A stretch of DNA of 58,401 nucleotides from Lactobacillales bacterium (lineage in GTDB: Bacteria > Bacillota_I > Bacilli_A > RF39 > UBA660). The position numbers were made by a program, and so were the translations under genes. Under the pieces are notes generated by a model, which saw only the letters and a program-made list of their open reading frames with translations, was not told the origin of the DNA and did no database searches. The stretch spans positions 1 through 58,401 of the forward strand of contig SVAG01000007.1 of the NCBI GenBank assembly GCA_015059545.1, written 5' to 3'. Positions 886 through 57,808 of the stretch are shown one piece after another (the stretch's first letter is position 1; each line of letters begins with the position of its first letter).

Positions 886-3171
886 ATGGTAGACGAATCA
901 GTAGAAACAAAATATGTAATTAAAAGAAATGGTAAAAAAGTAGATTTTGATGGTTCAAAAATCGCTATTGCTATAAAAAAAGGGTTTGATAGTGTAAAAG
1001 TAGAAGATGAAGAAAACAAATATACAGAAAAAGATATTCAAAAAATATATCAAGCAGTTATATCAAAAATTGAAAAATTAGAAAAATCTCAAGTTAAAAT
1101 TGAAGAAGTTCAAGATATGATTGAAGATGAATTAGAAAAAAAAGGATATGAAGATGTATATACTTCATTTAAAGAATATCGTGAAAGAAGAGCTAATTCA
1201 AGAAAATTATTCTTTGATGAAAAGAAAACTCATAAATTCTTAAAATCAATTGAAGGGCTTGGACTTAAATCAGCTGGTGAAGAAGATGCTAAAAGAGAAA
1301 ATGCAAATGTTGATGGAGATACTGCTATGGGTACAATGTTACAATATGGTAGTACAATATCAAAAGAATTTGCTAAATCATACTTAATGAAACCAAAATT
1401 TGCTAAAGCTCATGATGATGGAACAATTCACGTACATGATATGGACTTTATTCCAATGGGAACAACAACATGTATGCAAATAGAATTAGATAGACTATTT
1501 AAAAATGGGTTTTCTACAGGACATGGTCATTTAAGAAAACCAAACGATATAATGTCATATTCAGCACTTGCAGCTATTGCAATTCAATCAAATCAAAATG
1601 ATCAACATGGTGGACAAGCAATTCCTGCATTTGACTTCTATATGGCACCAGGAGTTTTAAAAACATTTAAAAAACAATTTAAACAAACAATATATGATTT
1701 ATTAGATTTTAGTGATTTAGTTTCATTTGTAAATATGGATAAAGTAGCCAAAGAAATCGATAAATTAAATTCTATAGATGTAGATATTACTATTTTTGAA
1801 AATTTCTATAAAGAATCTAGTACAGTAAAAAGAATATTTGAAAAAAGTTACGAAAAAGCACTACAAAAAACTAATAGAACAACATATCAAGCAATGGAAG
1901 CATTTGTACATAACTTAAATACAATGCATTCTAGAGCTGGTGCTCAAGTACCATTTTCATCAGTAAATTTTGGTACAGATACATCTAGCGAAGGAAGAAT
2001 GGTTATTAAAAACTTCTTACTTGCTACTGATGAAGGGCTTGGAAAAGGAGAAACTCCAATATTCCCAGTATCAATATTCAAAGTAAAAGAAGGAATAAAT
2101 TACAACAAAGAAGATAAAAACTATGATATGTTTAAATTAGCGTGTCAAGTTTCTGCTAAGAGATTATTCCCTAACTTCTCATTTATAGATGCTCCACATA
2201 ATCTTCCATATTATAAAGAAGGAGATTATAGAACAGAAGTAGGTTATATGGGATGTAGAACAAGAGTTATGAGTGATATTACTGATCCAGATAATGAAAC
2301 TACTGGAGGAAGAGGAAATTTATCATTTACATCAATTAACTTACCTAGAATAGCAATTAAACATGGTATCTGTTTAAAAGAAAGAGATAAGGCAGATATG
2401 AAAGGTTTCTATGAAGAACTAGAAGAAGTTATGGAACTTGTAAAAGATCAATTGCTTGAAAGATTTGAAATTCAATGTAATAAAAGATGTTACAACTTTC
2501 CATTCTTACTTGAACAAGGAATTTGGACAGATGGTGATAAATTAAAACCAACTGATAGACTTAGAAAAATATTAAAACACGGAAGTTTAACATTAGGATT
2601 TATTGGACTTGCAGAAAGTTTAAAAGCCTTAATTGGTAAACATCAAGCAGAAGATGAAGAAGCACAAAAACTAGGACTTGAAATAATTGGATTTATGAGA
2701 AATAAAGCTGATGAATTCTCAAAAAAATATAATTTAAACTTTGCTTTAATTGCAACTCCAGCAGAAGGATTATCAGGAAGATTTGTTGGAATAGATAGAG
2801 CTATATATGGAAAAATTAAAGGAGTTACTGATAGAGCTTATTATACAAACTCATTCCATGTGCCAGTTTATTATAATATAAGTATAAGTAAAAAAATAGA
2901 AATAGAAGCACCATATCATGCATTAACAAATGGTGGACATATTTCTTATATAGAATTAGACGGAGATACAGCATCTAATGTAGAAGCATTTGAAAGTATA
3001 ATAAGACTTATGAAAGAAGCAGGAATTGGATATGGAGCGATTAACCATCCAGTAGATAGAGATCCTGTTTGTGGATATGTAGGTGTTATTGGGGACGTAT
3101 GTCCTGGTTGCGGAAGAAAAGAATTTGAAAGTGTACCTTTAGAAAGGGTAAGAAATAATTGTAATTATTAG
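886..3171 (+). CDS. nrdD: Anaerobic ribonucleoside-triphosphate reductase, large part lacking a working radical site
   Basis: Class III ribonucleotide reductase, which makes deoxynucleotides without oxygen. The 761 residues carry an N-terminal ATP-cone (about 9-100) and the NrdD barrel with YGSTISKEFAKSYLMK, VHDMD and HSRAGAQVPFSSVN. The C-terminal zinc region reads DPVCGY...CPGCGRKE, so the first of four expected Cys is Asp. The protein then ends at ERVRNNCNY, where the glycyl-radical motif (RRITGYL in relatives) should lie; Asn replaces the radical Gly and nothing follows. The missing domain is encoded by the next small ORF. The start at 886 has an AGGAGG site at 873-878. Function presumably needs the small ORF and NrdG. 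Confidence 0.93.
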   Translation: MVDESVETKYVIKRNGKKVDFDGSKIAIAIKKGFDSVKVEDEENKYTEKDIQKIYQAVISKIEKLEKSQVKIEEVQDMIEDELEKKGYEDVYTSFKEYRERRANSRKLFFDEKKTHKFLKSIEGLGLKSAGEEDAKRENANVDGDTAMGTMLQYGSTISKEFAKSYLMKPKFAKAHDDGTIHVHDMDFIPMGTTTCMQIELDRLFKNGFSTGHGHLRKPNDIMSYSALAAIAIQSNQNDQHGGQAIPAFDFYMAPGVLKTFKKQFKQTIYDLLDFSDLVSFVNMDKVAKEIDKLNSIDVDITIFENFYKESSTVKRIFEKSYEKALQKTNRTTYQAMEAFVHNLNTMHSRAGAQVPFSSVNFGTDTSSEGRMVIKNFLLATDEGLGKGETPIFPVSIFKVKEGINYNKEDKNYDMFKLACQVSAKRLFPNFSFIDAPHNLPYYKEGDYRTEVGYMGCRTRVMSDITDPDNETTGGRGNLSFTSINLPRIAIKHGICLKERDKADMKGFYEELEEVMELVKDQLLERFEIQCNKRCYNFPFLLEQGIWTDGDKLKPTDRLRKILKHGSLTLGFIGLAESLKALIGKHQAEDEEAQKLGLEIIGFMRNKADEFSKKYNLNFALIATPAEGLSGRFVGIDRAIYGKIKGVTDRAYYTNSFHVPVYYNISISKKIEIEAPYHALTNGGHISYIELDGDTASNVEAFESIIRLMKEAGIGYGAINHPVDRDPVCGYVGVIGDVCPGCGRKEFESVPLERVRNNCNY

Positions 3172-3181
3172 GAGGAATATT

Positions 3182-3352
3182 ATGGAAAAAGTAGTTGGAG
3201 AAGGAGTAGGATTCGAAAGAATCAGAAGAATAACAGGATATCTTGCAGGAGATGTTAAAAGATTTAACAATGGAAAAAGAGCAGAAGAAAAAGATAGAGT
3301 AAAACATACAGGAGTTAAAGAAGTAATGAAAGCTTCTAAAGAAGCAGTATAA
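3182..3352 (+). CDS. Separate glycyl-radical domain of NrdD
   Basis: A 56-residue protein starts at ATG 3182 behind GGAGG (3171-3175), 10 bases after the nrdD stop and in another frame. It contains FERIRRITGYLAGD, the class III RNR glycyl-radical motif with Gly19, followed by RFNNGKRAEEKDRVKH, the usual C-terminus of formate-type NrdD. It therefore supplies the domain missing from the upstream protein, much as GrcA/YfiD supplies a spare radical domain to pyruvate formate-lyase. Its stop is 2 bases before nrdG, so all three are probably one transcript with coupled translation. Identity of the motif is certain; action in trans is inference. Confidence 0.85.
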   Translation: MEKVVGEGVGFERIRRITGYLAGDVKRFNNGKRAEEKDRVKHTGVKEVMKASKEAV

Positions 3353-3354
3353 TT

Positions 3355-3921
3355 ATGGAAATAAGATTAGCGGCTGATTTACAAAGTGATAGTATTGTAG
3401 ATGGTGAAGGAATCAGAACAGTTATTTGGACACAAGGATGTCCACATAATTGTTTTGGTTGCCATAATGCTTGTACTCATGATTTTAATGGTGGTGGATT
3501 AATAGATATAGAATATATAAAAGAAGAACTTTCTAATCTAAAAGCGCAAGATGGATTAACTTTTTCAGGAGGAGATCCAATGTGTCAACCAGAAGCATGT
3601 AATGAAATAGCTAAATTTGCTAAAGAACTTGATATGAATATTTGGTGTTATACTGGATATACATATGAACAATTAATAATTATGTCAAAAGCTAATAAAC
3701 ATATCATGGAATTTTTAAAGAACATTGATGTGTTAGTAGATGGTAAATTTGTATTGGAACTAAAAAGTAATGATGCAATATTTAGAGGTTCAACAAATCA
3801 AAGAATTATTGATGTACAAAAGAGTTTAGAAGAACAAAGAGTATGTTTAGTAGAAAAATATATTATAAGAGCAAAAGAAGAACAAATTAAATTTTGTCAT
3901 GAAAAATATTTGTTTGTATAA
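3355..3921 (+). CDS. nrdG: Anaerobic ribonucleotide reductase activating protein (radical SAM)
   Basis: This 188-residue radical-SAM activase makes the glycyl radical on NrdD using S-adenosylmethionine and a 4Fe-4S cluster. The cluster motif CX3CX2C is seen as C29, C33 and C36 in QGCPHNCFGC. The SAM-binding region TFSGGDPMCQPE follows, then the conserved WCYTGYTYEQL. Full length for the family. It starts 2 bases after the radical-domain ORF, so its likely substrate here is Gly19 of that small protein. A palindromic terminator follows immediately. Confidence 0.93.
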   Translation: MEIRLAADLQSDSIVDGEGIRTVIWTQGCPHNCFGCHNACTHDFNGGGLIDIEYIKEELSNLKAQDGLTFSGGDPMCQPEACNEIAKFAKELDMNIWCYTGYTYEQLIIMSKANKHIMEFLKNIDVLVDGKFVLELKSNDAIFRGSTNQRIIDVQKSLEEQRVCLVEKYIIRAKEEQIKFCHEKYLFV

Positions 3922-7930: not shown

Positions 7931-10876
7931 ATGTATTTAAAAAGAATTATAGCAAATGGATTTAAATCATTCGCAGATAAAATTAATATTGAACTTACAA
8001 ATGGTATTACAGGTGTAGTAGGTCCTAATGGTAGTGGAAAAAGTAATGTTGTAGATGCAGTAAGATGGGTACTAGGTGAACAATCAGTAAAATCACTAAG
8101 AGGAGAAGGAAATATGACAGATGTTATATTTTCAGGTTCTAAATCAAGAAAAGCATCTAATAGTGCTAGTGTAACATTAGTATTTGATAATACAGATAAA
8201 TATTTACCACTTGAATATGATGAAGTTTCAATAACAAGAAGAGTATATAAAGACGCTACAAATGAATATTTTATTAATAATGAAAGAGCTCGTCTTAAAG
8301 ATATAACAGATTTACTTTTAGATAGTGGTATTGCTAAGGAATCATTTAATATTATTTCACAAGGTAAAGTAGAAGAAATAATAAGCAGTAAACCAGAAAG
8401 TAGAAGAGTAATATTTGAAGAAGCTGCCAGTGTCTTAAAATATAGAAAAAGAAAAGAAGAAGCATTAAGAAAATTAGATAGAACACATGATAATATGAAT
8501 CGTGTAAACGATATTGTAAGTGAACTTAAAAATCAAGTAGAACCATTAAAAGAACAAAGAGATAAAGCAGTTGTTTATTTAGAAAAGAAAGATGAATTAG
8601 AAAGTGTAGAAGTAGCTTTAATTACTAAAGATATTACAGATATTAATTATAAATATGTAGAATCAAAAAATAAAATAGAAGCACTCAATAAAGAATTAAT
8701 AGAAATATCTGTAACTAATACTAATAAAGAAGCAAAAATAGAAGAATATAAATTAAACTTAAATAAATTAGAAAAAGAAATAAATGAACTTAATAAAGAA
8801 TTATTAGAAAAAACAACATTAGTAGAAAAATTAAATAGTGAAAAAACTATTTTACTTGAAAGAAAAAAATATGATGTAGAAGATACAAAATTACATAACA
8901 ATATTTTAGAATTAAAAGAAAAAGAATTAGAATTAAATAATAATATAAGTAAAATAATAAGTGAAATAGAAATAAAAAATAAAGAATTAGAAGAAATAAA
9001 AGAAGAGTTAATAAAACTAGAAAAAGAAATAAATGATGAAAAAACTAAAAAAATAAATTTAGAATTTAATCTAAGTTCTAAAATAAGAGAAAAAACTAAA
9101 TTAGAAGATAAAATAAATGATTTAAAAGAAAAAATAGAAAATAATGGAAGTCTACCAGCATCCGTAAAAATTATATTAAATAATATAAAACTAAATGGTG
9201 TATGTGATGCAATTGGTAACTTAATAGAAGTAGAAGAGGAATATTCAGTTGCTATTACAACAAGCTTAGGGGCTTCTACTTCATATGTAGTAGTAGAAAA
9301 TGAATCTACTGCAAAAGAAGCTATTAAATATTTAAAAGACAATAATTTAGGTAGAGTAACATTCTTCCCACTTAATATAATTAAATCAAAGTATGTAGAA
9401 GATAGTATACTTGATATATTAAATAAATCAGAAGGGTTCGTAGGAATTGCTTCTAATCTAGTTAAATTTGATAAAAAATATCAAAATATAATTGAAAATC
9501 AATTAGGTAATGTTATTGTAGTAGATAATATTGATAATGCTAATATAATAAGCAAAAAGATAAATTATAGATATAAAATTGTTACTTTAACAGGTGAACT
9601 ATTACATGTAGGTGGATCTATCACGGGAGGTAATGATTTTAGAAGAAATAATATTATTACTGATAAATATGAACTTGAAAATAGTATAAAACAATTAGAA
9701 TCATTAATAGAAGAAATTAAAACATTAGAAAATGATATTAATGATGTAGATCATAATTATAAAGCATTAGAAGATAAATTATATTTAATAAATAAAGATA
9801 AAATAAATTTAGATGAATTTATTAATATAAAAGAAAACACAAAATTAGAATATAATTCAAAATTAGAAAACATTACAAGAGAAATAAATGGAACAAATAA
9901 TTTATTAAATAATAATTTAAGTGAAGAAGAAAATAAAATATTAGAAGAATACTATAAACAAGTTGATTTAAAGAACCAATGTGAATTAAAATTAGAAGAA
10001 TTAAAAAGACAAAAAATAAGTTTAAATAATGATTTAGAAGAATATGAATCTACTTTAAAACAAGAAAATAGTGCTTATAACTTAAAGAGTAAAGAATTAA
10101 AAGAACTTGAAATAGATGTTAATAGAATGGATGTTAAATTAGATAACTTACTTAATAAGTTAAACGAAACATATTCTCTAACTTATGAAAAAGCAACAAC
10201 AATCTATAAATTAGAAATGGATGAAGAGGAAGCTAGAAATAAAGTAAGTAATTTAAGAAGAATAATAAAAGAACTTGGGAACGTAAATGTAGATGCTATA
10301 GAAGAATATGACAAAGTAAGTGAAAGATATGAATTCTTAATAAAACAACAAGAAGATTTAATAAAAGCAGAAGATACATTACTTCAAATTATCAAAGAAA
10401 TGGATGAAGTAATGGAAAGAGAATTTGTAAAAACATTTAAAGTAATAAGAGAAAACTTTAAAGAAACATTTAGAGAATTATTTAAAGGTGGAAATGCAGA
10501 TTTAAAACTTACAGATCCTAATAATATTTTAGAAACAGGAATTGAAATAGTAGCGTCACCTCCAGGAAAAAGCTTAAAAAGTATTTCCCTTTTATCAGGA
10601 GGAGAAAAAACATTTACAGCAATCAGTTTATTATTTGCTATCTTAAAATCTAGACCAGTGCCATTCTGTATACTAGATGAAGTTGAAGCAGCACTAGATG
10701 AAGTAAATGTTGATTCATTTGGTAGCTATTTAAAAATGTTACAAGCAAAAACACAATTTATACTTATAACACATAAAAAAAGAACTATGGAATATGCAGA
10801 TATCTTATATGGTATAACTATGCAAGAATCTGGTGTATCTAAATTAGTTAGTGTTAAATTAGAAGAAATTAAATAA
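7931..10876 (+). CDS. smc: Chromosome segregation protein SMC (short arms)
   Basis: This 981-residue condensin ATPase organises and separates replicated chromosomes. Walker A GPNGSGKSN is at 31-39. A first coiled coil (about 170-400), the hinge (about 405-560, with LPASVKIIL and TGGND), a second coiled coil (about 580-790) and the C-terminal head with LSGGEKT and LDEVEAALDE follow. Typical Firmicute SMC is near 1180 residues; both head motifs and the hinge are intact, so the shortening is in the arms. An extended TATAAT at 7902-7907 lies 24 bases upstream. The scpA and scpB partners are not in the window. Confidence 0.95.
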   Translation: MYLKRIIANGFKSFADKINIELTNGITGVVGPNGSGKSNVVDAVRWVLGEQSVKSLRGEGNMTDVIFSGSKSRKASNSASVTLVFDNTDKYLPLEYDEVSITRRVYKDATNEYFINNERARLKDITDLLLDSGIAKESFNIISQGKVEEIISSKPESRRVIFEEAASVLKYRKRKEEALRKLDRTHDNMNRVNDIVSELKNQVEPLKEQRDKAVVYLEKKDELESVEVALITKDITDINYKYVESKNKIEALNKELIEISVTNTNKEAKIEEYKLNLNKLEKEINELNKELLEKTTLVEKLNSEKTILLERKKYDVEDTKLHNNILELKEKELELNNNISKIISEIEIKNKELEEIKEELIKLEKEINDEKTKKINLEFNLSSKIREKTKLEDKINDLKEKIENNGSLPASVKIILNNIKLNGVCDAIGNLIEVEEEYSVAITTSLGASTSYVVVENESTAKEAIKYLKDNNLGRVTFFPLNIIKSKYVEDSILDILNKSEGFVGIASNLVKFDKKYQNIIENQLGNVIVVDNIDNANIISKKINYRYKIVTLTGELLHVGGSITGGNDFRRNNIITDKYELENSIKQLESLIEEIKTLENDINDVDHNYKALEDKLYLINKDKINLDEFINIKENTKLEYNSKLENITREINGTNNLLNNNLSEEENKILEEYYKQVDLKNQCELKLEELKRQKISLNNDLEEYESTLKQENSAYNLKSKELKELEIDVNRMDVKLDNLLNKLNETYSLTYEKATTIYKLEMDEEEARNKVSNLRRIIKELGNVNVDAIEEYDKVSERYEFLIKQQEDLIKAEDTLLQIIKEMDEVMEREFVKTFKVIRENFKETFRELFKGGNADLKLTDPNNILETGIEIVASPPGKSLKSISLLSGGEKTFTAISLLFAILKSRPVPFCILDEVEAALDEVNVDSFGSYLKMLQAKTQFILITHKKRTMEYADILYGITMQESGVSKLVSVKLEEIK

Positions 10877-18283: not shown

Positions 18284-18895
18284 ATGTATCAAAAAGAGAA
18301 TTTAACTTATAGTAGTTTAGAACCATATATTAGTGATAGAACACTATCTATTCATTATAATAATCATTATTTAAAATATTTAAAAAATTTAAATGATCTT
18401 TTATTAAAAGAAAACTATAATTTTAAATATACTAAAGAAGAATTATTTAATCATATAGATGAATTTAATATAAGTTCAAGAGATAAAATATTATTTAATT
18501 TAGGTGGAGTAGTAAATCATGAACTTTATTTTTATAATATAAGTGATTTAAAAAATAATATTCCAGTTGGGAGTATTAAAAAAGAAATAGATGAGTATTA
18601 TGGTAATTATGAAACTTTTAAAAAAGAATTTAAAAAGATGGCTTTAGAATTAGTAGGTTCTGGATATACATATTTAGTAATAAATAAAAATAAAGAATTA
18701 CAAATTATAAATATGAGTAATCAAGAAAGTCCATATATGTATGGAATGATACCTATAATCGCACTTGATTTATGGGAACATGCTTATTATTTAGATTATC
18801 AAAATAATAAAGAAAAATATATTGATACTTTTTTTGAAATTATTGATTTTAATAAAATAAATAATTTATATGAAAAAGAAAAAAATAAAATATAA
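18284..18895 (+). CDS. sodA: Superoxide dismutase (Fe/Mn type), divergent
   Basis: A 203-residue protein of the Fe/Mn superoxide dismutase family. The four metal ligands are placed as expected: His in LSIHYNNHY, His in GGVVNHELYFYN, and Asp and His in ALDLWEHAYYLDYQ. GSGYTYLV replaces the usual GSGWAWLV. The final helix continues into a Lys/Glu-rich tail that overlaps the next gene by 26 bases. The sodA-pbpA order is also seen in Bacillus. Metal preference cannot be told. Confidence 0.88.
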   Translation: MYQKENLTYSSLEPYISDRTLSIHYNNHYLKYLKNLNDLLLKENYNFKYTKEELFNHIDEFNISSRDKILFNLGGVVNHELYFYNISDLKNNIPVGSIKKEIDEYYGNYETFKKEFKKMALELVGSGYTYLVINKNKELQIINMSNQESPYMYGMIPIIALDLWEHAYYLDYQNNKEKYIDTFFEIIDFNKINNLYEKEKNKI

Positions 18896-43283: not shown

Positions 43284-44732
43284 ATGAAACAAAAAAAAGG
43301 ATATAAAGGGTATATTATAGCAATTGTATTAATATTTATAATTACTATAATAATTTTATTTACTACAGGTAATATTAAATTGGGTACTAAAAATAAAATA
43401 ACAGAAGAAAATTATAAATGTCCAGAAGGATATTTATTAGAAGATGGAAAATGTAAAAAAGATGTTTTTGAATGTCCAGCTGGAACAATTTTATTATCAT
43501 CTGGAGAATGTACAAGATCAGTGATTACATATACATGTCCAGAAGGGTATGATTTATATAATGGAACAAAATGTGTAGATTCAGATGAAGCAGAATACGT
43601 ATATGTATGTCCAGAAGGATATGATTTATATGAAAAAACAAAATGTAAAAGAGGAAAAGAAATAATAGATGCGATAAAACTTTTAAAAGAAGAAGTAATA
43701 TATAAATATACATGTCCAGAAGGGTATGAATTATATGGTGGAACAAAATGTAGATCAGAAGATAAAGTAATTGAAGCAACAAAAACATTAATTTCAGCAG
43801 CAGTATATGAATACACATGTCCAGAAGGATATGAATTATATAATGGAACAAAATGTAAAAATGGAGATAAAATAATAGATGCAACAAAAAAAGTAGTTTC
43901 TGAAGCTAAATATAAATATACATGTCCAGAAGGATATAATTTATATAATGAAACAAAATGTAAAAAAGGAACAGAAATAATAGACGCAACAAAAACACTA
44001 GATACTAGTGTAGAATATAGTTATACATGTCCAGAAGGATATGAACTATATAATGGAACTAAATGTAAAAAAGGAACAGAAATAATAGACGCAACAAAAA
44101 CAGATAATAAATATACATGTCCAGAAGGATATGAACTATATAATGAAACAAAATGTAAAAGTAAAGATAAGATAATAGATGCAACAAAAAAACACGAATT
44201 AGATAATAAGTATTCATATGTATGTCCAGAAGGATATGAATTATATAATGGAACACAATGTAAAAAAGGTGATCAAGTAATAAGTGCTGTAAAAAAACAA
44301 GATAGTGAAAATAGTAATATAAAAGATGCTAAAGAAAATATAACAGAAGAAAAAAAAGAAAAAGAAAAAGTTACAAATATTGTTGATCCTGTTGAAAAAC
44401 ATAAAACATTTACAGTAAGTAGTATTAAAGTATTTTCTGGTAGAAGTAGCTATAGTATGAGTCATGATTTAAATAATGAAAGAGATAATATAACAATAAA
44501 ATTATTACCAGAAACAGTAACATCTACAGTGACTTGTAAATCAAGTGATGATGAAGTTATTCAATTATCAAAAAATACATATGTAATAGATCATAAAGGT
44601 TTGATATCTGTTTTAGGAATTGGTCCTGGTACAGCAACAATAACATGTTCTACATCAAATGGAAAATCAGATTCATTTACAATTACTATATGTCCAGATG
44701 ATTTCTATATAGATGGAGTATGTAATGGATAA
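43284..44732 (+). CDS. Membrane-anchored protein with ten Cys-pair repeats and an Ig-like end
   Basis: A 482-residue surface protein. A membrane helix (about 9-28) acts as an uncleaved anchor. Then come ten repeats of the form CPEGYxLYNGTKC, each with two Cys, spaced 16-35 residues apart by linkers such as KKGTEIIDATK. A charged linker (EEKKEKEK) leads to a C-terminal beta domain (TVTCKSSDDEVIQLS...GPGTATITC) like bacterial Ig-like group 2, with a final Cys pair. The repeats resemble single-disulphide EGF/TIL-like units. Such a fibre may bind a surface ligand; function unknown. The repeats are also near-identical in DNA, so copy number may vary. Confidence 0.75.
   Translation: MKQKKGYKGYIIAIVLIFIITIIILFTTGNIKLGTKNKITEENYKCPEGYLLEDGKCKKDVFECPAGTILLSSGECTRSVITYTCPEGYDLYNGTKCVDSDEAEYVYVCPEGYDLYEKTKCKRGKEIIDAIKLLKEEVIYKYTCPEGYELYGGTKCRSEDKVIEATKTLISAAVYEYTCPEGYELYNGTKCKNGDKIIDATKKVVSEAKYKYTCPEGYNLYNETKCKKGTEIIDATKTLDTSVEYSYTCPEGYELYNGTKCKKGTEIIDATKTDNKYTCPEGYELYNETKCKSKDKIIDATKKHELDNKYSYVCPEGYELYNGTQCKKGDQVISAVKKQDSENSNIKDAKENITEEKKEKEKVTNIVDPVEKHKTFTVSSIKVFSGRSSYSMSHDLNNERDNITIKLLPETVTSTVTCKSSDDEVIQLSKNTYVIDHKGLISVLGIGPGTATITCSTSNGKSDSFTITICPDDFYIDGVCNG
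43414..44275 (+). repeat. Tandem DNA repeats in the Cys-repeat gene
   Basis: A unit beginning ACATGTCCAGAAGGATATGA recurs ten times with period 48-108 bases; the middle copies are nearly identical over 45 bases. Suited to slippage or recombination. Confidence 0.8.
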
Positions 44733-44736
44733 ATAA

Positions 44737-44770
44737 AAACTAACAATTTTAAATTGTTAGTTTATTTTTT
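44737..44770. terminator. Bidirectional terminator
   Basis: AAACTAACAATTT pairs with AAATTGTTAGTTT, with a T-rich tail; between convergent genes. Confidence 0.8.
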
Positions 44771-45665
44771 TTATTGCATCTTTAATAATATCAATAGAAT
44801 TTTGTAATTTTTTAGATTCTTCTTCATTAAGATCAATATAAATTCTATCTTTAATACCAGTACTATTTAAAATAGCAGGTAATCCAATAAATACATCATT
44901 TTTATCATCATATGTTGAAACTGTAATAATTGCATTTTCATCACCTAATATAGCATTAGTAATTCTTACCAAACACATTCCAATGCCATAATAAGTAGCA
45001 CCCTTTTTATTTATTATTTCATAAGCTGCATTTTTAACTTCTAAACAAATTTTTTCTAATTCTTCTTCTTTTAAATAGTCGTTTATATTTTGTAGTCCTA
45101 TATTAGCATTACTCCAAGGAACAAATTCAGAATCTCCATGTTCTCCAATAACATAAGCATGTACATTTTTAGGATTAATATTTAATTTATCACTTATTAA
45201 ATATCTAAGTCTTGAGGTATCTAAACTAGTACCACTACCAATAATTCTATTTGGACTTAAATTTGAATATTTATAAGTCAAATAAGTCATAACATCAAGT
45301 GGGTTAGTAGCAACTAAAAATATTCCATCAAAATCACTATTCATAACATTATTGACAATAGATTTAAAAATAACACTATTTTTATTGATTAAATCCATTC
45401 TAGTTTCACCTGGATTTTGATTAGCACCAGCTGCAATACAAACTATTTTAGCATCTTTGCAGTCATTATAATCTCCAACTCTAATTTTAATTTTAGATGG
45501 AGCAAAAGCTAAACAATGATTTAAATCCATAGCTTCTCCAATAATTCTATCTTTATTTAAATCGATTAAAACTAATTCATTTACATAAGTTCTTTGATTA
45601 AGTAGGGCATAAGCATAACTCATTCCTACATTACCACATCCAATTATAACAACTTTATTATTCAT
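44757..45665 (-). CDS. ldh: L-lactate dehydrogenase
   Basis: A 302-residue NAD-dependent enzyme that reduces pyruvate to L-lactate to recycle NADH. NAD fold GCGNVGMSYAYALL, the specificity loop AAGANQNPGETRMD with the Gln that marks lactate over malate dehydrogenase, and the active-site GEHGDSEFVPWS are present. A GGAGG site overlaps the stop of a 33-residue membrane peptide upstream, so the two are probably coupled. With pyruvate kinase nearby it points to lactic fermentation. Confidence 0.93.
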   Translation of the reverse strand: MNNKVVIIGCGNVGMSYAYALLNQRTYVNELVLIDLNKDRIIGEAMDLNHCLAFAPSKIKIRVGDYNDCKDAKIVCIAAGANQNPGETRMDLINKNSVIFKSIVNNVMNSDFDGIFLVATNPLDVMTYLTYKYSNLSPNRIIGSGTSLDTSRLRYLISDKLNINPKNVHAYVIGEHGDSEFVPWSNANIGLQNINDYLKEEELEKICLEVKNAAYEIINKKGATYYGIGMCLVRITNAILGDENAIITVSTYDDKNDVFIGLPAILNSTGIKDRIYIDLNEEESKKLQNSIDIIKDAIKKIN

Positions 45666-52338: not shown

Positions 52339-55300
52339 ATGGTAGCAAATAGTAACTTCGGGGGGGGGGGATTTAAAGAATACCAATAAAAAAGGATTTA
52401 CACTAATAGAATTATTAGCAGTAATAGTAATAATAGGTTTAATCGCACTAATCGCAACACCAATAGTATTAAATATAATAAATGATGCAAGAAAGAGTGC
52501 AGTAAAAGTATCAGTATATGGATATGTAGAGGCAATAGAAAATGAAGCAGCACTATCACAAATCGAAGAAGAAGAATACCAAGATAAAGAAGATTATACA
52601 TATGATGAAATAAAAGTAGATATAAAAGGAAAAAGGCCAACAGCTGGATTCTATTCATTAAAAGATGGAAAAGTAGTAACAGGAATATTCTGTATAGATG
52701 GATATACAGTAAATTATACAAATAATGAAGTAACAATAGGAGAAAAATGTAATGAAAATGATTTAAAATTACCAGGAAGTGTAGTATTATCATCAACAAG
52801 TGGAGATTATAGATATCCAACAAGTGGAACATTTGAAGTAATAGAAAACATAAGTGGAGGGGCACTAAGTTGTGAAACAAGTGATAAAGAAGTCGCAACA
52901 TGTGAAGTAAAAGGAAAAGAAGTAACAGTAGTGCCAGGAAAAAAAGAAGGAAGCGCAACAATAACAGTAATATCAGCATCCACATCAAAATACCAAGAAG
53001 CAAAAGCAGTGTATGTAGCAAAAACAGCAAAAGGATTATTAAGCGTAACGGCAAACGGATACACAGGAAAATATGATGGAGAAGAACACGGAATAACAGT
53101 AGAAGTAGAAAATGCAATAATAAAATATGGAACAAGTGAAGGAAGTTATACATTAGATGAAAGTCCAAAATACAGTGATGTAGGAGAATACATAGTATAT
53201 TATGAAATAGAAAAAGCGGGATATAATCAAGTAAGAGGAAGTAAAACAGTAGTAATAGAACAAGCAGACGGAAAAATAGAATTAGAAGAACAAAGCGGAA
53301 CAGTAGAATATAATAAAACAATAGAGATAAAGATAAAAGAAAATAAAAGTAACGGAGAATTAAAAGTAACATCATCAAATAAAGAAATAGCTGAAGCAGA
53401 AATAGAAGATGGAAACTTAAAAATAAAAGGTGTAAAAACAGGAAAAGCAACAATAATAGTAATAAGTAAAGAAACACATAATTATAAAGAAGCAGAAACA
53501 AAATATGAAGTAGAAGTAACAAAAGCATCAAATACATTAAAAATATCACCAACAACAGCGAAATATACATATCCAGAAAGTGGAACATTTGAAATAATAG
53601 AAAACATAAGTGGAGGAAGTTTAAGCTGTGAAACAAATGATGCAAGCATAGCAGAATGTGAAATAAAAGGGAATATAGTAACAGTAGTACCAGGCAAGAA
53701 AGAAGGAAGCGCAACAATAACAATTAAATCAGCAGAAACAGAAAATTATAAAGCAGGTCAAGTATCACATGTAGCAATCACAGCAAAAGGAACATTAAAT
53801 AGTTATACAGTAAATGGATACAAAGGAATATATGATGGAAGTGAACATGGAATCACGGTAGAATCAAGTGATTCAGTGATAAAATATGGAACAAGTGAAG
53901 GAAGTTATACATCAGATGAAAGTCCAAAATATAGTGATGTAGGAGAATATACAGTATACTATGAAATAACAAAAGAAGGATATAATGTAATAACAGGAAG
54001 TGAAAAAGTAGTAATAACAAAAGCTGAAGGAACAATAACAGCTCCAACAGCAAAAGACTTAACATATACAGGAAGCGCACAAGAACTAATAAAAGCAGGA
54101 ACATCCCAAACAGGAGAAATCCAATATAAAATAGAAGGTGGAACATATTCGACAAGTATTCCAAAGGCAACAAATGCAGGAACATATAAAGTATATTATA
54201 AAGTAGTAGGGGATAAGAATCATGAAGATGTAACAGAAACAAGTATAAGTGTAACAATAAAGAAAGCAACACTAAATTATACAACAGCAGGATATGAAGG
54301 AATATATGATGGAAGTGAACATGGAATAACAGTAGAAGCAAGTGGAGCAACAATCAAATATGGAACAAGTAGTGAAAGTTATACATTAACAACAAGCCCA
54401 AAATACAGTGATGTAGGAGAATATACAGTATATTATCAAATAACAAGAGAAGGATATAATACAGTAAGTGGAAGCGAAACAGTAAAAATAACAAAAGCAA
54501 ATAATGTATTAAAAATAACACCAACATCAGCAACATATACATATCCAGAAAGTGGAACATTTGAAATAACAGAAAATAAAAGTGGAGGAAGTTTAAGTTG
54601 TGAAACAAGTGATAAAGAAGTAGCAACATGTAGCATAAGTGGAACAACAGTAACAGTAACACCAGGAACAACAGCAGCAAGTGCGACATTAACAATTAAA
54701 TCAGCAGAAACAGAAAATTATAAAGCAGGCCAAGTAGCACATGTAGCAATCACAGCAAAAGGAACATTAAATAGTTATACAGCAAATGGATATAGTGGAA
54801 TATATGATGGAAGTGAACATGGAATAACAGTAGAAGCAAGTGGAGCAACAATCAAATATGGAACAAGTAGTGAAAGTTATACATTAACAACAAGTCCAAA
54901 ATATACAGATGTAGGAACATATACAGTTTATTATCAAATAGAAAAAGAAGGATATAATACAGTAAAGGGAAGTAAACAAGTAGTAATAAGTAAAGCAGAA
55001 GGGAAAGTAACAGCGCCAACAGCAAAAACATTAACATATACAGGAAGCGCACAGACATTAATAAATGCAGGAAGTTCAAGTACAGGAACAATACAATATA
55101 AAGTAGGAAGTACAGGAACATATAGTACAGATTTACCAAGTGGTAAAGATGCAGGGACATATACTGTATACTATAAAGTATTAGCAAGTACAAATTATAA
55201 AGAAGTAACAGAAAAGAGTATAACAGTAACAATAGATAAAGCAGTAAATACATTAACGTTATCCGCAAATACAGGAACATATACATATCCAACAAGTGGA

Positions 55301-57808
55301 ACATTTACAATAACAAAAAATACAAGTGGAGGAAGTTTAAGTTGTGAAACAAGTAATTCAGCAGTAGCGACATGTAGTATAAGTGGAACAACAGTAACAG
55401 TAACACCAGGAACAACAGAAGGAAGTGCGACATTAACAATTAAATCAGCAGAAACAGATAATTATAAAGCAGGCCAAGTATCACATGTAGCAATTACAGC
55501 AAAAGGAACAATCCCAAGTGTAACAGCAAATGGATACACAGGAACGTATGATGGAAGTGAACATGGAATAACAGTATCAACAACATTAAGTGGAGCAACC
55601 ATCAAATATGGAACAACAAGTGGAACATATAACTTAACATCAAGTCCAACATATAAAGATGCAGGAACATATACAGTTTACTATCAAATAACAAAAACAG
55701 GATATCAAACAGTAGAAGGAAGTAAACAAGTAGTAATAAATAAAGCCGCAAATCCAATAACAGTAACAGCGAAGACATTAACATATACAGGAAGTGCACA
55801 AAGTTTAGTAACAGTATCAGGAGCACAAGGAAACGTATGTTATTCAACAAGTGCAGCGCCAACAAGTTGTAGTACAGCAGGAAGTATCCCAACAGGAACA
55901 AATGCGGGAACATATACTGTATACTACTATGTAGCAGGAAACACAAATTATAATGCAAAATCAGGAAATGTAAGTGTAACAATAGGTAAAAAAGCAGATT
56001 CGATAACAATAACATCAAAAACATATACATATGATGGAAATGGAAAAGCAACAAGTGCGAGTGCAACAAGTGGACTAACACCAACAGTAACATATTATAG
56101 TGATTCAAGTTGCGCGACAAAGACAACAACAAGTAATGCAACAGCAGCAGGAGGAACACCAAAGGTTGTTGGAACTTATTATGCAACAGCAAGTACAGCA
56201 GGAAATACAAACTATAATACAGCAAGTAAAAGTTGTACAAAAGCAGTAGTAATAGATAAAGCAACAAATACATTAACGTTATCAGCAAATACAGGAACAT
56301 ATACATATCCAACAAGTGGAACATTTACAGTAACAAAAAATACAAGTGGAGGAAGTTTAAGTTGTACATCAAGTAATACAAGTGTAGCAACATGTAGTAT
56401 AAGTGGAACAACAGTAACAGTAACACCAGGAACAACAGAAGGAAGTGCGACAATAACAGTAACAAGTGCAGCAACAACAAACTATAATTCTGTAAGCGCA
56501 GCGCATGTAGCAACAACAGCAGCTGGAACATTGAGTGTAACAGCGACAGGTTTTAATGGAGAATATGATGGAGCAGCACATGGAATAACAGTGACAGCAA
56601 GTGGAGCAACCATCAAATATGGAACAACAAATGGAACATACAATTTAACATCAAGTCCAACATATAAGGATGTAGGAACTTATACTATATATTATCAAGT
56701 AAGTAAGACAGGATATAACACAGTAACGGGAAGTAAGATGGTAGTAATTAAAGATACAACAGCACCAGCTGCACCAACTATTGCAAATCCAACTAGTGGA
56801 AATTGGACTAATACTGATTTTTCTTTAACATTAAATGCAAGCGATACTGCATCAGGAATAGCATATTATCAATATAGTTATGATAATTCATCATGGACTA
56901 CTTATGCTAATTCAAATACAAATACATTTACGACGACAGCATTTGCTATAGAAAGAAATCAACTTGCATATCTTAGAGTATGTGATAATGCTGGTAATTG
57001 TTCATCATCTAGTTCTACATATATAAGAATAGATAAGACATCTCCAAATTTAGTTTTAGGAACATCAACATCAACTCAGAATGTTATTAAAATACCAATC
57101 AACACAAATAGTGATAGTGCATCAGGAATAAAGAGTGTAACATGTAAATTAGGAACAACAAGTGGAAGTTATACAATAATAGGAACAATAAACAATAATG
57201 TTTGTACAACAACTGAATTAGCACCTAATACAACTCACTATTATCAAGTTTGTTCTACTGATAATGCAGGAAATATAAAATGTGTTACTGGAAGTAAAGC
57301 AACAACTGCATTAACTATATCAAAAATTAATAGTGAAACTAATTTAATCAATTATTCATGGTATAATGGAACAATTACAGGTATGACAGGAGAACTTATA
57401 ACATTAACAAGTAATAATAATCAAATATTTTTAAGAACAAATATAACTTCAATTTCTGGAATAACAAATCATAAAATATATGGATACACGAATACAAATA
57501 GAAGTTCAACAAGTTTACAGCCAGGAATATATCTTATTGCATCTGGTGAGTTGTCATCATGGCATAGCGGTGCTGATAATCAATGCGTTACATTTGATAA
57601 TAGTAGTACGCCAGGAACTTGGACAAAAGTAGGTTGTATAGTATCTTCATCATATAATTATTTATCAAACGTGATGTTAGCTCAAGCAAATGGAAGTGCA
57701 GTAGGAGATATGCATTTTACTGGATTATATATATATGATTTAACATCATACTTTGGTGCTGGAAATGAACCTAGCTTGGCATGGTGTAATAAATATATAA
57801 CAGGATAA
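52339..57808 (+). CDS. Giant prepilin-type adhesin with Ig/MBG-like repeats, out of frame at a poly-G tract
   Basis: ATG 52339 (AAAGGGTG upstream) reads MVANSNF, then meets 11 G and stops at 52387-52389. With 10 (or 13) G the frame continues as DLKNTNKKGFTLIELLAVI to 57808, about 1822 residues. KKGFTLIE is a type IV prepilin leader: cleavage after Gly, methylated Phe, then a ~22-residue hydrophobic helix. After a pilin-like region with two Cys come alternating modules. Five are SGGxLSCET/VATC Ig-like units of ~85 residues, six are YDGSEHGITV/IKYGT/GTYTVYY units of ~75, and several are TYTGSAQ-type MBG-like units. Then come two further beta domains and a C-terminal lectin-like domain ending FGAGNEPSLAWC. 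No LPXTG motif. Likely a pilus-tip or surface adhesin under phase variation. Confidence 0.8.
52360..52370 (+). repeat. Poly-G tract of 11, candidate phase-variation switch
   Basis: Eleven consecutive G in a region that is otherwise almost free of G-runs, seven codons after the start of the adhesin. The length sets whether the prepilin frame is joined to the ATG: 11 is OFF, 10 or 13 is ON. A sequencing or assembly miscount is the main alternative. Confidence 0.8.
52770..56750 (+). repeat. Long imperfect tandem module repeats
   Basis: Alternating modules of about 220-260 bases recur; stretches such as GATGGAAGTGAACATGGAAT and AAATATGGAACAAGT occur repeatedly with little change, for example at about 54310-54360 and 54800-54850. 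Codon use is monotonous (ACA, AGT, GGA, GTA). Good substrate for recombination and hard for short-read assembly. Confidence 0.85.

Follow-up and report, generated by a model that had tools for sequence, protein, structure and literature searches.

Within the window, an entire contig of 58,401 bp from a genome of 1.19 Mb (completeness 93.5%), one gene encodes a protein, P1, with ten short units of two cysteines each. This raises the question of what these units are, and whether their cysteines could brace a surface structure in a lineage presumed to be anaerobic. The layout of the gene and its product is given below. The units were read from the translation, and units 4–10 also from the pattern count.

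43284-44732 (+): open reading frame of P1, 482 aa (ORF list; recovered intact in the own-genome search)
43314-43370 (+): predicted N-terminal transmembrane helix, about residues 11–29, after a lysine-rich N-terminus (hydropathy 3.01 at residue 11; orientation presumed)
43419-43454 (+): unit 1, CPEGYLLEDGKC (aligned to unit 1 of both paralogues)
43473-43511 (+): unit 2, CPAGTILLSSGEC, degenerate, without GY (aligned to the paralogues)
43536-43574 (+): unit 3, CPEGYDLYNGTKC
43608-43646 (+): unit 4, CPEGYDLYEKTKC, then IIDAIK
43713-43751 (+): unit 5, CPEGYELYGGTKC, then VIEATK
43818-43856 (+): unit 6, CPEGYELYNGTKC, then IIDATK
43923-43961 (+): unit 7, CPEGYNLYNETKC, then IIDATK
44028-44066 (+): unit 8, CPEGYELYNGTKC, then IIDATK; 5 residues shorter than its neighbours
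44118-44156 (+): unit 9, CPEGYELYNETKC, then IIDATK
44223-44261 (+): unit 10, CPEGYELYNGTQC, then VISAVK
44262-44441 (+): charged, K/E-rich spacer from the units to the C-terminal domain (translation)
44442-44690 (+): predicted Ig-like beta-sandwich domain, limits approximate, with two Cys (418, 455) (structure prediction; no Pfam match)
44691-44723 (+): degenerate 11th Cys pair, CPDDFYIDGVC, residues 470–480, at the C-terminus (translation)
44737-44775 (+): terminator-like hairpin and T run 3' of P1 (-10.1 kcal/mol, z -4.24)

A preliminary description of this stretch had proposed a single open reading frame with ten two-Cys units, and this was borne out: the CPxG...C pattern was counted ten times between residues 46 and 326, against a maximum of one in 20,000 residue shuffles. 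The two Cys of a unit are 11–12 residues apart, most units read CPEGYxLYxxTKC, and nine of the ten start with Y-x-C-P (unit 2 with F-E-C-P). The distance from unit to unit is 18, 21 and 24 residues at first and 35 thereafter, with one exception of 30. IIDATK, described earlier as the linker between units, occurs four times in exact form (residues 197, 232, 267 and 297) and seven times with looser forms included, but never after units 1–3. P1 contains 24 Cys in total, an even number, only four His and no Trp. The N-G-T of the units was considered as a glycosylation sequon and dropped, because Asn-Gly is an ordinary turn in hairpins. A single hydrophobic stretch stood out by simple hydropathy, a strong one starting near residue 11, in agreement with the anchored repeat protein that had been proposed.

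The middle repeats had also been called nearly identical in DNA, which proved incorrect, as the whole 105-bp units 4, 5, 6, 7 and 9 share only 67–80% identity (10 pairs). The 39-bp cores of units 3–10 are 82–97% identical, and the closest stretch measured is that of units 7 and 8 (93% over 75 bp). With a third-position G + C content of 4% in the P1 coding sequence, likeness in codons is forced. In the cores of units 3–10 the same residue was encoded by the same codon in 0.90 of the pairs, compared to 0.74 expected from the codon usage of the window, which argues for a relation by duplication beyond protein constraint alone. The duplication is thus genuine but not recent.

The hairpin 3' of P1 was absent among the sites from the terminator consensus scan, which placed two terminator-like sites inside the P1 repeats; promoter-like sites were rarer than in shuffles. 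Beyond the hairpin lies an ldh-like gene, named from its translation and convergent with P1. An Rfam scan of the window gave no match. Elsewhere in the window are an anaerobic ribonucleotide reductase pair (886-3921) and, at 18284-18895, a superoxide dismutase-like gene (by eye); together they would fit an anaerobe meeting some oxygen. A 1625-aa frame (52931-57808) matches Big_2 and is tandemly repeated at 53737-55215 with a period of 498 bp; Cys pairs occur in many of its repeats.

The beta structure of the units and of the C-terminal domain is predicted only. AF2 on units 5–7, aligned to five further windows of three P1 units each, returned strands only, linker included (pLDDT 78.1, pTM 0.40), and a fold search with this model against the PDB gave no match at E 0.001 or Z 2. 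The fibre that had been envisaged is thus retained as predicted hairpins with an extended linker, and its single straight shape stays hypothetical at this pTM. The C-terminal 96 residues, predicted without an alignment, also contained strands only (pLDDT 64.3) and form a sandwich by their matches. The best Foldseek match had an E of 0.17, and the best VIA match was an Ig domain (Z 6.1, rmsd 3.1, 78 residues aligned), values that an arrangement which is simply widespread could also give. No Pfam Ig model matched P1 up to E 10. The proposed Ig-like cap is therefore weakly supported as to its identity. Beyond it P1 continues to the 11th Cys pair, a feature missing from the preliminary description.

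Library models and the repeat unit

Two Pfam models scored above their cut-offs on the whole of P1, CPW_WPC (PF09717; 37.2 bits, cut-off 23) and cEGF (PF12662; 32.3 bits, cut-off 26.6), and PBCV1_P7 (PF25636) scored 29.7, just below its cut-off of 30. None of the three scored in four shuffled controls of P1 that kept Cys, CP or CPxG. Among the paralogues and relatives scanned, CPW_WPC was above the cut-off only in a 316-aa paralogue (31.1) and cEGF in two relatives, L056 and L158 (60.8 and 59.5); sushi passed in one relative, L056. P1 itself gave no Pfam sushi row, no TraN (PF06986) row up to E 10, and no family in NCBIfam or PHROGs.

An EGF-like domain has six Cys and three disulphides, and a true EGF domain was rejected because a P1 unit has two Cys. 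The CPW_WPC family is named after its CPW and WPC motifs; these are impossible in a protein without Trp, and this domain was rejected too. The sushi module is a third candidate, of about 60 residues with four Cys, a conserved Trp and a YxCxxGYxLxG...C stretch. When solved structures were searched with a profile of the relatives' units, sushi-module proteins ranked first (complement receptor 2, E 1.8e-9); with P1 alone, the EGF and sushi matches were no better than E 0.02. No library model was found that really fits the CPxGYxLxGxxC repeat: two Pfam scores pass and the defining features fail. A Pfam family explaining P1 in full, against which the preliminary description had set its reading, was thus not encountered. 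The open-licence literature searched yielded no account of the repeat, nor of proteins of this kind in the lineage, which is no proof of absence.

Paralogues and relatives

Five open frames of the own genome matched a seven-row repeat profile. They are P1, two paralogues close together on contig C6 (816 aa at L006 4623-7073 and 316 aa at 7939-8889), and a pair of large, Cys-rich proteins at roughly 184–193 kb of C6. The alignment of both paralogues to P1 begins with the membrane helix and extends over the first units. As read from the translations, the surroundings of the paralogues include a pair of ABC exporter genes, one ffh-like gene and, at L006 11615-12397, a collagen-like protein with GPTGPA repeats. 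The two large proteins are located beside a third Cys-rich protein and a CpaB-like gene. This cluster of three very large proteins (73, 69 and 45 Cys) followed by the CpaB-like gene (L023 3567-15647, on C6) suggests a Tad/Flp-type pilus locus.

With P1 alone as query, 4 of 98 genomes matched at 1e-5, whereas an alignment of three N-terminal parts matched 93 of the 386 family genomes at 1e-3 (50 of 150 genera), the own genome being counted in both searches; the family matches listed fell mostly within the repeats, not the helix. A filter-passing frame was present in 14 of the 17 fetched stretches examined, and these 14 frames together with three earlier loci displayed two main designs. One consists of the helix, often MGN[ST], and then units; these are accompanied by a domain that exceeds its Pfam cut-off (dockerin, InlB-type repeats or DUF4886) or by an Ig-like end that stays below it. 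In the other, the helix is followed by a pilin-like domain (by reading; no Pfam match over the cut-off) and 5–19 detected units.

Dockerin type I lies near CPxGY units right after the membrane helix in L062 (4578-5105), L060 and L070 (4246-7674) according to Pfam, and in L064 (1481-2425) by eye only; in L062 single units stand on either side of the dockerin domain. MGN[ST] directly follows the helix in nine of 12 aligned surface proteins (L006, L054, L055, L057, L060, L062, L064, L068 and L070 aligned), MGDS in L062 makes the tenth, and P1 and L061 lack the motif, which is possibly a processing or sorting signal of the lineage. L098 (994-2355) has an RsgI-like central domain (Pfam) fused to CPxGY units, an arrangement that would suit a repeat acting as the sensing part of an anti-sigma factor.

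Class-wide, the N-terminal alignment matched 21 of 395 genomes, four of them outside the family, where the matches cover positions 3–30, 5–63, 2–57 and 8–40 of the 74 in the model. By eye, no such repeats were seen in the printed frames of three of these four genomes (G509, with frames of at least three Cys only, G602 and G688; the fourth is G071), so these matches were taken as helix matches. Of 24 genomes, 12 have the ldh-like neighbour; six of these were read over about 8–12 kb each, and in none does P1 adjoin it, so the site of P1 is variable.

The same repeat occurs beyond the lineage. By tblastn, P1 matched 30 plasmid records (best E 4e-20 among ten matches listed; 25–31% identity over about 60% of the query), including TraN of Sphingopyxis and Sphingobium and frames of Shewanella and Alteromonas. 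No match was found among phage records, and P1 alone gave no confirmed relative in genome and viral contigs. A unit HMM was built from 108 units of 12 relatives, with P1 left out. It scored 135.0 bits on P1 (at most 6.2 in 20 shuffles keeping Cys and CP), 373.3 on the Sphingopyxis TraN, 130.4 on the Shewanella frame and 149.9 on the Alteromonas frame (best of 20 shuffles each 2.8, 2.8 and 3.1), and the scores of P1 and TraN place the unit across phyla. The Shewanella and Alteromonas frames (L113, from about 2138, and L114, from about 2447) are long and Cys-rich, with 25 and 33 detected units; they are carried by MOBH plasmids and are largely unannotated in the tables used.

Genome contigs were also scanned with a profile whose alignment already contained one Sphingopyxis and one Shewanella row; this yielded 87 relatives, the best 80 of which represent 78 distinct loci. 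By record title, 12 of these loci are from Pseudomonadota or Actinomycetota, one from a 'bacterium' and 65 carry Bacillota or Tenericutes names. In 74 of the 78, a frame carried two or more units (2 to 28 each), some frames being cut by contig ends. The Cys-Cys spacing was exactly 11 in 512 of 771 detected units (the search pattern allowed 10–15), and gaps between units ranged from 3 to 58 (gaps of at least 60 left out). Pfam was run on six of the 74 frames: two were RHS proteins (FG-GAP and a TcdB-type middle region occur in one of them), one was PilY1, one an RTX-repeat protein, one had cEGF and FXa_inhibition scores and one had no match. The P1 units thus belong to a widely shared repeat, which distant bacteria may have in common by descent, transfer or convergence.

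Redox setting and competing explanations

Oxidative folding systems had been described earlier as often absent in such bacteria, which applied here only in part. VKOR, Thioredoxin_4 and DsbB gave no match in the own genome (93.5% complete), and in the family VKOR matched one of 386 genomes, weakly (18.8 bits), and none over the cut-off. However, Thioredoxin (PF00085) matched two own-genome proteins, both read as extracytoplasmic: a lipoprotein-like CSHC protein over the cut-off (L072 1411-1824) and a helix-anchored CGYC protein under it (L073 1285-1818), the anchors being assigned by reading. The genome also encodes further Cys-rich exported proteins besides P1. RF39, the GTDB order of this lineage, is the subject of a separate paper on its cell walls (PMC10868615).

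Cys parity was counted by mechanical gene calls in 32 stretches, a small and biased sample, as most were fetched for Cys-rich genes. Among proteins that have a single N-terminal helix and lack both a lipobox and units, Cys numbers were even in 18 cases and odd in six (24 of 36 with 1–12 Cys), against 48 even and 78 odd for proteins without a helix (126 of 147 with 1–12 Cys; Fisher p 0.0013). When lipobox and unit proteins were kept, the count was 24 to 9 (p 0.0007), and the first unfiltered count was 28 to 12; own-genome stretches alone gave five even to three odd. Nine Cys-rich proteins were tabulated, four with even and five with odd Cys numbers.

We consider P1 to be probably a membrane-anchored stalk of single-disulphide beta-hairpins that presents an Ig-like head. 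The lysine-rich N-terminus and the one membrane helix would anchor the protein, with the remainder presumably outside the cell. Each of the ten short hairpin units would most likely have its two Cys joined to each other in a disulphide, and the predicted alternation of hairpins and extended beta linkers would raise the Ig-like domain and the last Cys pair off the membrane, where the head might contact a surface or partner, in presentation or adhesion. The stalk is supported by the non-random units, the single strong N-terminal helix, the alignment of the paralogues from the helix through the first units, and the strands-only prediction for three units. The even-Cys bias in exported proteins argues for disulphides in it. 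A surface role is supported by the company of the units in relatives (dockerin, InlB-type repeats, DUF4886, TraN, PilY1 and RHS). For disulphides within units there is a measured precedent in the minor capsid protein P7 of PBCV-1, for which the accessible part of the paper gives neighbour-to-neighbour disulphides, two of three of them detected by mass spectrometry (PMC6344570). Against the stalk are the unmatched VKOR, DsbB and Thioredoxin_4, the pTM of 0.40, the repeat model without a fold match, the five odd Cys-rich proteins of nine, and the bias of the parity sample, with only five to three in the own genome.

Sushi modules have their disulphides between Cys1 and Cys3 and between Cys2 and Cys4, and the sushi matches of the relatives' profile and of L056 would favour disulphides that link neighbouring units, a pair of units making one module. 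We regard this as unlikely: P1 has no Trp, the distance between units varies widely, and the tight Cys-Cys spacing, the variable gaps and the single units flanking the dockerin of L062 favour pairing within the unit. It is likewise quite unlikely that the Cys are reduced or bind metal, the repeats being metal or thiol buffers and no covalently braced stalk. The missing VKOR, DsbB and Thioredoxin_4 matches would agree with it, as would the statement, in the accessible part of a study on clostridial disulphide enzymes, that obligate anaerobes exclude Cys from exported proteins (PMC12453122). It is opposed by the even-Cys bias among the sampled exported proteins, the two extracytoplasmic CxxC proteins, the scarcity of His, and the P1-type units in the Sphingopyxis TraN; for three other TraN variants, AlphaFold models are reported to let every Cys pair in a disulphide (PMC9246713).

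Cross-linking of P1 by disulphides to itself or to Cys-rich paralogues, which would build a surface matrix rather than single stalks, seems improbable. The genome does encode several Cys-rich exported proteins, and five proteins with units, but the 24 Cys of P1 could all pair internally. An origin of the units in a eukaryote, as true EGF-type domains or as the CPW-WPC domain of malaria parasites, is highly improbable. P1, one paralogue and two relatives do exceed the cut-offs concerned, and the P1 scores vanish on shuffling; yet this explanation is already contradicted by the missing defining features, and the HMM of bacterial units recognises P1.

Proposed disulphide stalks and known systems

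A membrane-anchored repeat stalk is a familiar object; what sets P1 apart is the unusual unit, for which no fitting library model was found, and the unexpected redox setting. If the lineage is anaerobic as presumed, the proposed tenfold Cys-pair stalk, together with the further Cys-rich exported proteins, would clearly depart from the Cys exclusion given in the accessible part of the clostridial study (PMC12453122), and disulphide formation without DsbB or VKOR would become a testable question. Pfam at present scores the unit as an EGF or malaria domain; with a model that fits, conjugation and pilus-tip proteins could be annotated more clearly. A broader proposal, possible but doubtful, has two parts: that an uncultured, presumably anaerobic lineage of Bacilli builds part of its surface from single-disulphide hairpin stalks, oxidised without DsbB or VKOR by membrane-tethered CSHC and CGYC thioredoxin-fold proteins, and that the hairpin repeat is a mobile, unnamed module moving between TraN, PilY1, RHS, RsgI-like and dockerin-bearing contact proteins across phyla.

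Among known systems, cEGF, the Cys5-Cys6 hairpin of complement-type EGF domains, shares the CPxGYxLxxxxxC spacing with the P1 units, but only this hairpin is found in P1 and the remaining four EGF cysteines are absent. The sushi/CCP module (PF00084) is alike in its YxCxxGYxLxG...C stretch and supplies the best solved-structure relatives by profile, whereas the P1 units have 18–35 residues, two Cys and no Trp. CPW_WPC of Plasmodium scores over its cut-off, yet its name-giving motifs cannot occur in P1. Closer in its pairing is P7 of PBCV-1, where successive Cys pairs are closed neighbour to neighbour and to which P1 scores near the threshold, although the accessible part of the paper describes this viral capsid protein as a globular domain, unlike P1 (PMC6344570). 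TraN of F-type conjugation on the Sphingopyxis plasmid pDB-1 (L112 3443-6619) carries a PF06986 domain at residues 761–1005, after its repeats, which P1 lacks, but its long repeat part has its unit in common with P1.
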